Source of the DNA: an uncultured Chloroflexota bacterium
Lineage (GTDB): Bacteria; Chloroflexota; Chloroflexia; Chloroflexales; Chloroflexaceae
Reading direction: 5' to 3'
NCBI GenBank assembly: GCA_937120965.1
Contig: CAKZKA010000027.1
Location: 1-36,625 of the forward strand
Length of the DNA: 36,625 nucleotides
The notes beneath the pieces are model-generated. The model did not search any database. It was not told the origin of the DNA and worked only from the letters and a program-made list of their open reading frames with translations. The translations under genes were made by a program, and so were the position numbers. Shown here in pieces: positions 1-36,625 of this stretch (positions within the stretch are counted from its first letter, which is position 1; the number at the start of each line of letters is the position of its first letter).

Positions 1-254
1 TGCGGTGAGCCTGTCGAACCGCCTGCGGTGAGCCTGTCGAACCGCCTGCGGTGAGCCTGTCGAACCGCACCCCTGCCCGTGGGAGGTGCCAGCCGCTCCC
101 ACCACCGGTTGGGACAGGGGGAAACCGGGTTTCCCCACCTGCGGTGAGCCTGTCGAACCGCCTGCGGTGAGTCTGTCGAACCGCACCCCTGCCCGTGGGA
201 GGCGCCAGCCGCTCCCACCAGCGGTTGGGAAAGGGGGAAACCGGGTTGCCCCAT
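1..254. repeat. Tandem and palindromic repeat block at the window start
   Basis: This non-coding block is built only of repeats. A 23-bp unit with core GGTGAGCCTGTCGAACCG is present three times head to tail at 1-69 and twice more at 140-184. Two near-identical roughly 90-bp cassettes (47-136 and 163-252) each end in the palindrome GGGGAAACCGGGTTTCCCC: perfect at 118-136, one mismatch at 234-252. The same parts recur elsewhere in the window, for example at 9210-9253 and 36466-36533, so this is a dispersed family and not a local array. From 255 to 314 I see nothing further. Confidence 0.85.
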
Positions 255-9198: not shown

Positions 9199-9209
9199 GG
9201 TGAACATAT

Positions 9210-9295
9210 GGGGAAACCGGGTTTCCCCACCTGCGGTGAGCCTGTCGAACCGCACCCCTCCCTGGCGGGAGGGTTTGGGAGGGCTGCGCCCTCCC
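9210..9295. repeat. Composite palindromic repeat
   Basis: A perfect GGGGAAACCGGGTTTCCCC (9210-9228) is followed by the GGTGAGCCTGTCGAACCG unit (about 9232-9253). The GGGAGGGCTGCGCCCTCCC palindrome comes next (about 9277-9295). The order matches other copies in the window. Confidence 0.8.
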
Positions 9296-12518: not shown

Positions 12519-12648
12519 GCGCCATGCGCGGGGCGCACAACGCCAGTATGAATGGGAGGCTGCCCACCCCTTTCAGGTGGAGGGTTATTGCGGAGGGCGT
12601 CCTGAGGCGCTGCTGGTCCTCACCGCCCCTGCCCCCCGCCTCTCATAA
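12519..12648. repeat. Diverged copies of dispersed intergenic repeats
   Basis: The stretch holds an inverted copy of the module that elsewhere reads CATTCTGGCGTTGTGCG (here about 12530-12555). It is followed by a diverged piece of the sequence found at 30621-30690 (the CTGCTGGTCCTCACCGCC part at about 12610-12627). No gene is visible. Confidence 0.6.
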
Positions 12649-12853
12649 GGTTTAAGGGCGGACAGAACGTATGGACGCCGACGGGCGTTATGGCGTCGGG
12701 ATGCGCTGGTTGGCTCCCGCCCCCTCCCCCTCTCCAGCTTCGCTGGAGAGCCTGCGCTGAGCCTGTCGAAGCGGGGAGGCCAGAGCCGCGCGCGGGGGCG
12801 TTCCAATACGGTACAAGCCACCCTGGCTCGGATGTTCTGTTCGCCCCTAAACC
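12649..12853. mobile_element. MITE-like element, copy 1 (205 bp)
   Basis: A 205-bp non-coding element is bounded by imperfect terminal inverted repeats. The left end GGTTTAAGGGCGGACAGAAC pairs with GGTTTAGGGGCGAACAGAAC, which is the right end read on the other strand. The interior is shared with 34974-35174 at high identity and includes an inner hairpin CTCTCCAGC/GCTGGAGAG. No transposase and no clear target duplication are seen. Confidence 0.75.
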
Positions 12854-16669: not shown

Positions 16670-17048
16670 TGCGCGGAGCGCACAACGCCGCGATGAAACC
16701 TCAGGGAGGGGGATGGGGAAACCCGGTTTTCCCATATCCCAACCGCCGTTGGGGGCGGCTGGCGCTCCTACAGGCAGGGGGATGGGGGAACCTCTCAAGT
16801 GTAGAGTTTTCGGGGGTGCAACCCCCGGGCCCCGCATACCCCACCTCCCTATCTTCTCCCCTGCCAGGGGAGGGGGGCAGAATCTGGCGTTACGGTACGT
16901 CAGCGGAGCCGGCGCATCGTAACGCCGACCACATACCCCCCTCTCCCTGAGCGGGAGAGGGGGGCAGGGGGGTGAGGACCAGCAGCGCATCAGGACGCCA
17001 TCCGCCAGAAACGCTACACCTGAAAGGATGGGGGAACCCGGTTTCCCC
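16670..17048. repeat. Mosaic of dispersed repeats including an inverted copy of 30621-30773
   Basis: This stretch carries a third CGCACAACGCC module (about 16679-16690), palindromes at 16715-16733 and 17031-17048, and an inverted copy of the 90-bp cassette seen at the window start (about 16735-16785). A 129-bp segment (16899-17027) matches 30621-30773 on the opposite strand with few changes. An extra 9-bp inverted repeat, GGCGTTACG/CGTAACGCC, lies at 16886-16926. From 17049 to 17339 I see no repeat, RNA or clear promoter. Confidence 0.75.
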
Positions 17049-22361: not shown

Positions 22362-22712
22362 GGTGAAAATAGCCCGCCCGCGGGAGGGTTTGGGCGTAGG
22401 GGCGCGGCGGCGCCGCGCCCCTACCCCCTCCCAGGAAACAACCCACCAGCGGGGAGGGTTTGGGAGGGCTGCGCCCTCCCAGGAAATAACCCGCCAGCGG
22501 GGAGGGTTTGGGAGGGCTTCGCCCTCCCAAGAACAATAATATTTTCATTCTGGCGTTGTGCGGCGCAGCCGCATGGATGACTATACGAACATTGGGGAAA
22601 CCGGGTTTCCCCACCTGTGGTGAGCTTGTCGAACCGCGCCCCTGCCTGCCAGGGTGGCAAGCTCCGAGCACCGGCAGGGTTCGGGAGCGAGGCGGGGAAA
22701 CCCGGTTTCCCC
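22362..22712. repeat. Dense composite repeat block
   Basis: This block fills most of the 416-bp gap. It contains the 13-bp hairpin GTAGGGGCGCGGC/GCCGCGCCCCTAC (22396-22424). Two tandem units of a 58-bp module follow, each with GGGAGGGCTGCGCCCTCCC or its TTC variant (about 22463-22481 and 22512-22530). Then come the CATTCTGGCGTTGTGCGG module (about 22546-22575), a perfect GGGGAAACCGGGTTTCCCC (22594-22612), a diverged GGTGAGCTTGTCGAACCG unit, and the opposite-strand palindrome at 22694-22712. The rest up to 22777 shows nothing I recognise. Confidence 0.85.
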
Positions 22713-30620: not shown

Positions 30621-30773
30621 CCTTTCAGGTGTAGCGTTTCTGGCGGATGGCCTCCTGATGGGCTGCTGGTCCTCACCCCCCTGCCCCCCCTTCGGCTCCG
30701 CTCAGGGCAGGCCTCTCCCTGAGCGGGAGAGGGGGGTATGTGGTTGGCGTTACGATGCGCCGGCTCCGCTGAC
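30621..30773. repeat. Dispersed repeat, inverted copy of 16899-17027
   Basis: This segment matches the 16.9-kb copy on the opposite strand. It begins CCTTTCAGGTGTAGCGTTTC and ends with GCGCCGGCTCCGCTGAC. It carries an extra stretch of about 23 bp, including TTCGGCTCCGCTCAGGGC, absent from the other copy. Immediately upstream is half of a family palindrome (GGGGGAAACC). The repeats fill the gap 30562-30788. Confidence 0.75.
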
Positions 30774-34973: not shown

Positions 34974-35174
34974 GGTTTAAGGGCGGACAGAACGTATGGG
35001 CCGACGGGCGGTATGGCGTTGGGATGCGCTGGTTGGTCCTCACCCCCGGCCTCTCCAGCTTCGCTGGAGAGCCTGCACTGAGCCTGTCGAAGCGGGGAGA
35101 CCAGAGCCGTGCGCGGGGGCGTTCCAATGCGGTATAAGCCATGTCAGCTCGGATGTTCTCTCCGCCCTTAAACC
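34974..35174. mobile_element. MITE-like element, copy 2 (201 bp)
   Basis: This non-coding element of 201 bp matches 12649-12853. Its termini are GGTTTAAGGGCGGACAGAAC and, on the other strand, GGTTTAAGGGCGGAGAGAAC. It includes the internal hairpin CTCTCCAGC/GCTGGAGAG and a CTGAGCCTGTCGAAGCG piece related to the 23-bp tandem unit. No ORF is present. Confidence 0.8.
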
Positions 35175-35221: not shown

Positions 35222-36385
35222 TCAGAACGTCGCCACCAGGCGCGCGCCCTCCGAAGGAGTACAGATCAACACGTGGGCCTCGCGCCCCAGACGCTTGTGG
35301 TAGCCGGCAACCAGATCGGCGGCAAAGCGCTCGACGGACCCTTCGGCCACCAGGCTCACCGTACTGCCGCCAAAGCCGCCACCGGTGAGGCGCGAGCCAT
35401 AGCAGCCAGGCAAACTTCGGGCGATCTCCACCAGCGTGTCAAGCTCCGGGGTGCTCACCTGATAGTCATCGCGGAGACTGGCATGCGAGGCATCCATCAG
35501 CGCCCCGAAGCGGGGCAGATCGCCGTGCTCCAGGGCCGCGGCAGCCGCCAGGGTACGCTCGATTTCGGTTACCACGTGGCGCGCGCGCCGAAGGATCACC
35601 GGCGGCAGAAGATCAGCATTGGCTTCGAGCTGCGCGGGCGCAACATCGCGCAGGGCCGCAATGCGCGGCAGACGCGCGCGGAGCAAGCGAACCGCCTCCT
35701 CGCAGGCGGCGCGGCGCTCATTATACTCCGAACCCACCAGGCTGTGACGCACGCCGCTGTCGCACACCACCACCCGCGCCTGCGGTGAAACGGGGATGGG
35801 TCGGTAACTCAGGTCGCGGCAATCGAGGAGCAGGGCATGCCCGGCGCGGCCCAGCGCGGCCATAAACTGGTCCATAATCCCGCACTGCATGCCGACAAAG
35901 CTCTGCTCGGCGCCCTGGGCCAGCAAGGCGAGTTCCTCACCCAGCAGATCAAGACGATTGAGCAACTGCAGCGCATAGGCCACCGCCACCTCCAGCGCGG
36001 CCGACGAGGAGAGACCGGCGCCGGGAGGCACCTCGCTATCGATCAGCAGATCTGCGCCGGCAAGGGGCAAATCGCGCGCCAGGATACCCTTTGCCACCCC
36101 ACGCACATAGTTGCTCCAGGGTTGATGAGGGTTACGCTCGATCTGATCGAGCGAGAACGCATCGTCGGCACTGAACTGAACGCTGTAGACGCGGACGGTG
36201 CGGTCCAGACGCGCCCGCGCCGCGATGAAGGTAGCGCGATCGATAGCGATGGGCAGCACGAAGCCCTCGTTATAGTCGGTGTGCTCACCGATCAGGTTAA
36301 CGCGCCCGGGCGCGCGCACAACCAACTGCGGAGGCGCGCCGAAACGGGCTGCGAAAGCATCGTGCAACTGGTGAACATCGAGCAT
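35222..36385 (-). CDS. galK: Galactokinase
   Basis: This 387-residue GHMP kinase phosphorylates galactose at C1, the first step of the Leloir pathway. It shows the galactokinase signature [19 protein letters not shown] (27-45), the ATP loop [15 protein letters not shown], the catalytic Asp in [13 protein letters not shown] and the C-terminal GHMP motif [20 protein letters not shown] 36385 has GGTGGAG seven bases upstream; a GTG at 36397 would add four residues. No other gal genes are in the window. Its product can feed nucleotide-sugar pools used by the glycosyltransferases here. Confidence 0.96.
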
Positions 36386-36433
36386 AGCCGGCTCCACCGG
36401 GGCAGCAAGTCAGATACTGGCGAAAACGGTTGC

Positions 36434-36465: not shown

Positions 36466-36533
36466 GGCCCCTGCCTGTAGGGGCGCCAGCCGCTCCCAAC
36501 CGCGGTTGGGGAATGGGGAAACCGGGTTTCCCC
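36466..36533. repeat. Repeat cassette with perfect palindrome
   Basis: This is a copy of the cassette at 70-136: CCCCTGCCTGTAGGGGCG, CCAGCCGCTCCCAACCGCGG, then a perfect GGGGAAACCGGGTTTCCCC at 36515-36533. Confidence 0.8.
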
Positions 36534-36549
36534 ATTCCCCTCCCTGCGG

Positions 36550-36625
36550 GGTTCAGGGGCGGACAGAACGTATGAGCGCCGACGGGCGGTATGGCGTTGG
36601 GATGCGCTGCTTGGTCCTCACCCCC
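36550..36625. mobile_element. MITE-like element, copy 3 (cut by the window end)
   Basis: The left terminus GGTTCAGGGGCGGACAGAAC and the following bases match copies 1 and 2 closely. The right half lies beyond the window. Confidence 0.75.

Follow-up and report, generated by a model that had tools for sequence, protein, structure and literature searches.

A high-copy MITE in a member of the Chloroflexus family, its probable IS4-like parent and its preference for palindrome loops

The 36,625 nt of DNA analysed here (the window) make up the whole of contig C27 in the 5.18-Mb genome of a member of the family that includes Chloroflexus, and contain three copies of a short element that is a MITE. 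We put the probability at about 0.9 that it is a non-autonomous derivative of an IS4-like element, mobilised by the transposase of that element into the loops of palindromes. The insertion sequence would circulate in the order of Chloroflexus and Roseiflexus, and its DDE transposase would recognise the common ends (GTTYARGGGCGGACAG), cut out or copy the MITE in trans, and join it preferentially into the loop of GC-rich intergenic palindromes, where a staggered cut would give rise to an 8-bp duplication. At the level of sequence, this reading is favoured by the common ends, the 8-bp duplication, the preference for palindromes, the empty orthologous sites and the full elements found in relatives, and a host function is unnecessary to explain the element. 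An earlier note on this DNA had already proposed a MITE; what is added here is its copy number, its palindromic target, the copy of that target in the centre of the element, and nesting.

Anatomy of the element

The three copies had been placed at 12649–12853, 34974–35174 and 36550–36625, and these coordinates are borne out, as are the distances given for galK (Table 1). The last copy was described as incomplete at the window edge, and contig C27 itself indeed stops inside it. The copies were also said to share their ends, which holds for all three except that copy 3 starts with GGTTCAGGGGCGGACAGAAC, two bases unlike copies 1 and 2, and the ends were said to be inverted repeats of each other, which they are, if imperfect ones: the right end agrees with the inverted left end at 18 of 20 bases in copy 1 and at 19 of 20 in copy 2. 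Identity between copies 1 and 2 is 88%. The bases at the very ends, G and C, probably belong to the target, so that the element proper has the limits given in Table 1. A 6-bp duplication, in which these two bases are counted as part of the element, was rejected, as a boundary shifted by one base gives 8 bp and also explains why the outermost base varies.

Table 1. Coordinates of the MITE copies, their parts and galK in the window.
Feature	Position	Strand	Remarks
MITE copy 1	12650..12852	+	205 bp including outermost bases 12649 and 12853, probably target-derived
Left terminal inverted repeat, copy 1	12650..12668	+	nearly identical end on IS4-like parent elements
Right terminal inverted repeat, copy 1	12834..12852	-	sequence of copy 1
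Central palindrome CTCTCC-AGCTTCGCT-GGAGAG, copy 1	12730..12750	+	
23-bp module CCTGCGCTGAGCCTGTCGAAGCG, which we take to be REP-like, copy 1	12751..12773	+	missing from the 182-bp class (class consensuses 182/205/255 bp)
MITE copy 2	34975..35173	+	47 bp past the galK stop
Central palindrome, copy 2	35051..35071	+	sequence of copy 2
MITE copy 3, left part	36551..36625	+	interrupted by the contig end; left-end pattern at 36557-36585, 0 mismatches
galK	35222-36397	-	galactokinase Pfam domains

Seventy-nine complete copies from the host genome were oriented and compared. They are not a random sample, being made up of the sequences that match copy 1 best, the places at the head of the pattern listings and their neighbours, and incomplete copies are under-represented among them. 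All lie between 129 and 344 bp, which is too short for a transposase gene (the 205-bp element has room for at most 68 codons), and terminal inverted repeats are present. The commonest lengths are 205 bp (36 copies), 182 bp (9) and 255 bp (7), the size classes differing by modules in the middle. A central CTCTCC-N3..14-GGAGAG is found in 37 of the 79. Copies of 201–206 bp (n = 46) have a mean identity of 93% to their own consensus (range 88–97%), and the bloom in the host is therefore not very recent.

Several other features of the copies and of the window were recorded. When L060 and L049 are set against the 205-bp consensus, the central hairpin is seen with its loop in either orientation (AGCTTCGCT or AGCGAAGCT), as though the loop had flipped. 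At 12585–12637, 16959–17010 and 30638–30690 lie degenerate sequences related to the left-inner half of the element (GGCGTCCTGATGCGCTGCTGGTCCTCACCCCC), and a sister subfamily with the same end is found at L025; copy 1 may be nested in the piece of this type at 12585, directly before it. Other abundant intergenic palindromes in the window, GGGGAAACCGGGTTTCCCCA and TTTGGGAGGGCTGCGCCCTCCCA (for example at 9209–9229, 16704–16734, 36514–36534; 22451–22543), belong to families of 7 to 8 listed copies. A 116-bp tandem repeat occupies window positions 19–250, its two copies being 95% alike and carrying the motif TGAGCCTGTCGAAC.

Copy number and mobility

The left-end pattern (29 bases, at most 3 mismatches) occurs at 226 places in the host genome and the right-end pattern (21 bases, at most 1 mismatch) at 167, with none for the reversed left-end control and none for the right-end control. 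In several cases a contig of the host assembly starts or ends inside a copy, and such copies account for many of the contig breaks in assemblies of these genomes.

Target-site duplications, which the earlier note had suggested looking for, were found at a length of 8 bp. With the element ends set at GTT...AAC, an exact 8-bp duplication flanks 22 of the 79 copies (0.06 expected, 500 shuffles), and 33 have one matching at 7 or more of the 8 bases. With 1 bp of slack these numbers become 36 (mean 0.33, maximum 3 in 100 shuffles) and 49 (2.83 in shuffles); in the other 30 copies fewer than 7 of the 8 flanking bases match even so. Copy 1 of the window has no target duplication (3/8 bases). At copy 2 the flanks CTTCCGCG/CTTCCACG agree at 7/8 bases with one base of slack and at 3/8 with fixed ends, and are probably its target duplication.

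The orthologous intergenic regions of same-genus genomes were compared wherever both neighbouring genes co-occur, the intergenes being too diverged for an exact empty site to be defined. The site of copy 1 lacks the element in all three informative genomes, where the flanks are 245 (G003), 256 (G002) and 95 bp (G001) apart, as against 455 to 507 here; G004 has only one of the two flanks. At the site of copy 2 the element is absent from all four genomes, with spacings of 123 (G004), 222 (G003), 97 (G002) and 56 bp (G001) against 471 to 544 here. No such end was found in the seven intergenes of these relatives when up to 4 mismatches were allowed, and the best match to the element within them is 16 bp long (E = 0.016). 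Rather than being fixed at orthologous sites, as would have told against a MITE, the insertions are not common to the relatives checked. Together, the target duplications and the sites without the element show mobility, and with the transposase-bearing kin that have the same ends (see below) they uphold the identification as a MITE.

Target sites in the host

All but one of the 45 testable insertion sites fall outside long open frames, whereas of 70 control points taken at a distance of 700 bp, 28 do so; a long frame was defined as stop-free for at least 110 codons on both sides and joined across the element, so that 1/45 sites and 42/70 controls lie inside one. Palindromy at the duplication was assessed at the 33 sites having a duplication of at least 7/8, with the stem centre required to lie within 3 bp of the duplication centre. 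A perfect stem of at least 6 bp is present at 12 of these sites (36%) and one of at least 7 bp at 10 of them; among 1716 control centres taken from the same flanks, 193 (11%) and 119, respectively, have such stems. Insertions in the host thus show a tendency towards GC-rich palindromes, the duplication falling at the loop, with much latitude allowed.

A probable IS4-like parent

The same termini around a transposase gene, another thing that the earlier note had proposed to search for, were found in other genomes. In a genome that we take to be Roseiflexus sp. RS-1, MITE ends 3.0 kb apart (L214) enclose a broken transposase that is interrupted by an IS110-type gene. The first piece of this transposase matches the IS4-family model NCBIfam NF033591 at 2.4e-5 and has matches (E at most 1e-5) in 21 of the 82 genomes of the order, its own included. 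Eight full elements with both ends, 1311 to 1382 bp long (L268, L270, L271, L286, L287, L291, L293 and L294), come from other genomes of the order, and at a further locus (L267) the left end is followed by a transposase of 405 aa, the other end lying off the contig.

Four further transposases were aligned to that of L267 and are 42–52% identical to it. All five proteins pass PF01609, and they match NF033591 with E-values of 4e-36 to 7e-28 (97.8–124.8 bits), none of them reaching the 152-bit cut-off of this equivalog model (transpos_IS4_2). In L267 the residues D120, D185 and E287 are separated by 64 and 101 residues, within the IS4 pattern D(60–110)D(100–150)E, and Y280-(2)-R283-(3)-E287-(6)-K294 gives the Y(2)R(3)E(6)K signature, which is likewise found in L268, L271 and L293. 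The glutamate common to the DDE and YREK motifs is kept in four of the five aligned proteins, and is replaced by A in L286. Direct repeats of at least 8 bp, within the 7–13 bp range of IS4 duplications, flank six of the eight full elements, L286 and L287 being the two without an 8-bp duplication; these repeats compute as 9 bp, one base in common with the element end being included. The ends (5'-GTTYARGGGCGGACAG) match no end signature of the seven IS4 subgroups as listed in Table 1 of PMC2266710. With a score below the NF033591 cut-off and no subgroup with 5'-GTT ends, the parent is called IS4-like and is assigned to no subgroup: its DDE and YREK hallmarks would place it there, and its ends appear to lie outside the signatures of the seven known subgroups.

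The insertion sequence itself was also found in palindromes. In a genome that is presumably that of a Herpetosiphon, the duplicated 8 bp of three copies (L271, L293 and L294) are exactly the loop of CCCCTCTCCC-N8-GGGAGAGGGG, and a fourth copy (L291) has the duplication with a poor perfect stem. Two other full elements, L268 and L270, also lie in palindromes, with stems of 10 and 6. The MITE and the IS4-like element both prefer the loop of GC-rich palindromes, CCCCTCTCCC-N8-GGGAGAGGGG being the clearest case.

Within the genus of the host, a contig of G001 breaks off after a matching end and 58 initial codons of a transposase (L277); this start, 90% identical to L267 over 61 residues, sits in the middle of a MITE copy. 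In the host genome there is a decayed transposase start (L276; 49% identity over 71 residues) with an end at 3 mismatches. This remnant is the one host match, at E of at most 1e-5, for the first piece of the Roseiflexus transposase; an intact transposase was not found, and the three PF01609 genes of the host are without these ends. The host may have lost an active transposase, or the gene may be missing from the assembly, which is broken at these repeats. As no intact host transposase was found, it is the ends, the duplication and the target that point to mobilisation in trans.

The failure of the host search (by PF01609 and by the IS4-like transposase) could also mean that the MITE is moved by a different, unseen transposase, the ends of the IS4-like element being alike by chance or through parallel descent. 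Beyond about 20–25 bp the host MITE is indeed only weakly like the known parent ends (best z 3.3 in 192 comparisons), as against z-scores of 6.2 and 6.0 for the MITE ends of Roseiflexus and G016. However, the insertion sequence and the MITE agree in their first 15–19 bases, in the length of the duplication and in the palindromic target, and the start of the insertion sequence, together with a matching end, occurs in a species of the same genus, which makes a different transposase improbable. The IS4-like insertion sequence of 1.3–1.4 kb is the probable source of the MITE.

Other candidates for a parent were set aside. An end without the left MITE interior occurs at 116 places in the host, and among the matches listed nearly all are right ends, the five others being MITE variants. 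None of 30 PF01609 loci from five other genomes has an end pair that could be taken for that of a parent. At L239, weak ends flank a 115-aa PF01609 frame, but they are of MITE type and the locus does not match the IS4-like transposase; in 20 stretches of G042 the ends belong to MITEs or are cut by contig ends. Searches of plasmids, viral contigs (by protein) and the PDB returned nothing relevant; a DNA match in a viral contig (L234) resembled phage tail sequence by eye and was discarded, and single 18-mer matches in Streptomyces and Rhizobium are at the estimated chance level. An origin of the MITE as an inverted duplication of one end of the insertion sequence is unsupported, left and right sequences beyond the ends comparing at z 2.0 in the host and at z -0.7 to 3.0 in seven other lineages. 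A different element, with ends ACCATTTCAGATTGTAGATTTT around a 418-aa ORF matching PF01609, is present at L167 (1188–2833), and ends similar to ACCATTTCAGATTGTAGATTTT also occur inside MITE copies (L065, L118 and L132).

Folding and covariation

The copies fold back on themselves into a single hairpin, long and imperfect, with a z of -4.0 for copy 1 (as RNA) and of -3.6 for copy 2 (as DNA), and in 70 of 73 host copies folding is better for the given strand than for its complement, features that might be expected of a structured RNA, such as a riboregulator or a transcript 3' end, repeated by chance and kept for its fold. The strand bias is, however, one inherited feature of the copies of one founder and not 70 independent observations, and no part of the window matches Rfam at the gathering threshold. 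Covariation, which the earlier note had named as evidence that would speak against a MITE, is no greater in host copies than in shuffles: among 61 of them, 6 pairs were changed on both sides (6.5 in shuffles), as were 17 cells (17.2). In 12 elements of other species the corresponding values are 9 pairs (7.7) and 12 cells (8.7, maximum 15). When all 73 elements are pooled there are 14 pairs (11.1 in shuffles), and the 39 cells exceed the mean of 23 and maximum of 35 seen in 200 shuffles, but this excess follows lineage, which the shuffles ignore. The target duplications and the sites without the element likewise argue for mobility, and an RNA element is very improbable, mainly because covariation is lacking among the host copies.

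The REP-like modules of some size classes, and the many other palindromic repeats of the window, would fit a REP- or BIME-type palindrome spread by a TnpA-REP (Y1) transposase and not by a DDE enzyme. This reading is hardly credible, since Y1 enzymes are not known to leave a target duplication while a clear 8-bp duplication is present here, and since a DDE element with the same ends exists.

Related MITEs, the central motif and nesting

Same-ended MITEs are present in G001, G002 and G004, with interiors related to that of the host element, and in G042, C. islandicus, Roseiflexus and others, with different interiors. In many, the centre contains the composite motif CCTCACCCC..CCCCTCTCC..GGAGAGG: it was found in 15/15 elements of G042, 5/8 of G002, 2/3 of G001 and 8/10 of C. 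islandicus, and in smaller samples in 1/2 of Roseiflexus, 1/2 of G011, 1/1 of G046, 0/1 of G016 and 0/2 of G019, compared with 0 of 2200 shuffled interiors of the non-host elements. In the host it is present in 27 of the 79 copies (0/1580 when shuffled). The same motif occurs at all five of the Herpetosiphon insertion-sequence sites examined, of 16 matches there. By its sequence, the MITE centre in several lineages is a copy of the target repeat, so that copies could receive further insertions.

Some copies are nested. Both flanks of host copy L030 match the middle of another copy, and one flank does so at L028 and at L096. In C. islandicus, two left and two right ends are nested at L087 (2366, 2463, 2665 and 2758), and two left ends precede one right end at L083. 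These few nested copies suggest that the MITE core may work as a target.

The same genomes hold further arrangements of these ends. Tandem arrays of units with such ends are present in C. islandicus at spacings of about 117 bp (L074) and 368 bp (L069). In G042 (L194–L213) the 13-base end core occurs without mismatch at 131 places, and the elements retrieved are mostly 181 bp; some of them are young, being near-identical. Among the matches listed, some two dozen of its contigs start within 50 bp of such an end.

It is possible, though we would lean somewhat against it, that the target of the transposase is a REP-like repeat, CCCTCACCCC..CCCCTCTCCC-N8-GGGAGAGGGG, and that the MITE has captured this repeat as its core. 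If so, each insertion would spend one target and supply a new one, allowing copies to grow in number without loss of targets and favouring nesting over damage to genes, and the repeated blooms of MITEs across the order, with common ends and different interiors, would be explained. If the core truly worked as a target, the MITE would be a simple natural case of selfish DNA that replenishes the sites into which it inserts.

Comparison with known systems

MITEs with an intergenic bias are well known, and so is a case of an IS4-family element that inserts into REP palindromes at their axis. ISRm22 of Sinorhizobium meliloti, an IS4-family element, has copies in REP palindromes at the axis of palindromy (PMC1525189), and has been placed in subgroup IS4Sa (PMC2266710). 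The probable parent described here resembles it in being of IS4 type and inserting in palindromes, and differs in its 8-bp duplication, the direct repeats of ISRm22 being 6 bp (PMC1525189), and in the phylum of its host. The ISRm22 paper nowhere uses the word MITE (PMC1525189).

The hallmarks given for the IS4 family are the spacings D(60–110)D(100–150)E and Y(2)R(3)E(6)K, together with a duplication whose length is close to one turn of the helix, 7–13 bp in the table (PMC2266710). The parent shares the DDE spacing, the Y(2)R(3)E(6)K signature and the duplication length with the IS231, ISH8, IS4Sa, IS4, IS10, IS50 and ISPepr1 subgroups, and departs from the end signatures of their Table 1 in its 5'-GTT ends (PMC2266710). 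It also differs from members of NF033591, its proteins scoring 98–125 bits, under the cut-off of 152.

Bacterial MITEs such as MITEAba12, Chunjie and QMITE are described as small, with inverted ends and target duplications, and as normally intergenic (PMC10969869). The present element is like them in all of these respects and unlike bacterial MITEs generally in its palindromic target, the copy of the target repeat in its own centre and its nesting in its own kind. It also differs from the case of QMITE2 and IS1111: IS1111 is not known to be the parent of QMITE2, whereas the present MITE probably descends from the IS4-like insertion sequence. In that case, from Coxiella, an internal palindrome of QMITE2 is the target of IS1111 (PMC10969869). 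A limited search of the open-access literature yielded no recognisable description of the present element, nor of any MITE containing the repeat that its probable parent targets. The case matters in that a high-copy orphan MITE is tied to a probable parent and to a target rule that is readable from sequence, the palindrome loop; were its core a working target, the system would also supply an IS4-type transposase whose preference spares genes.
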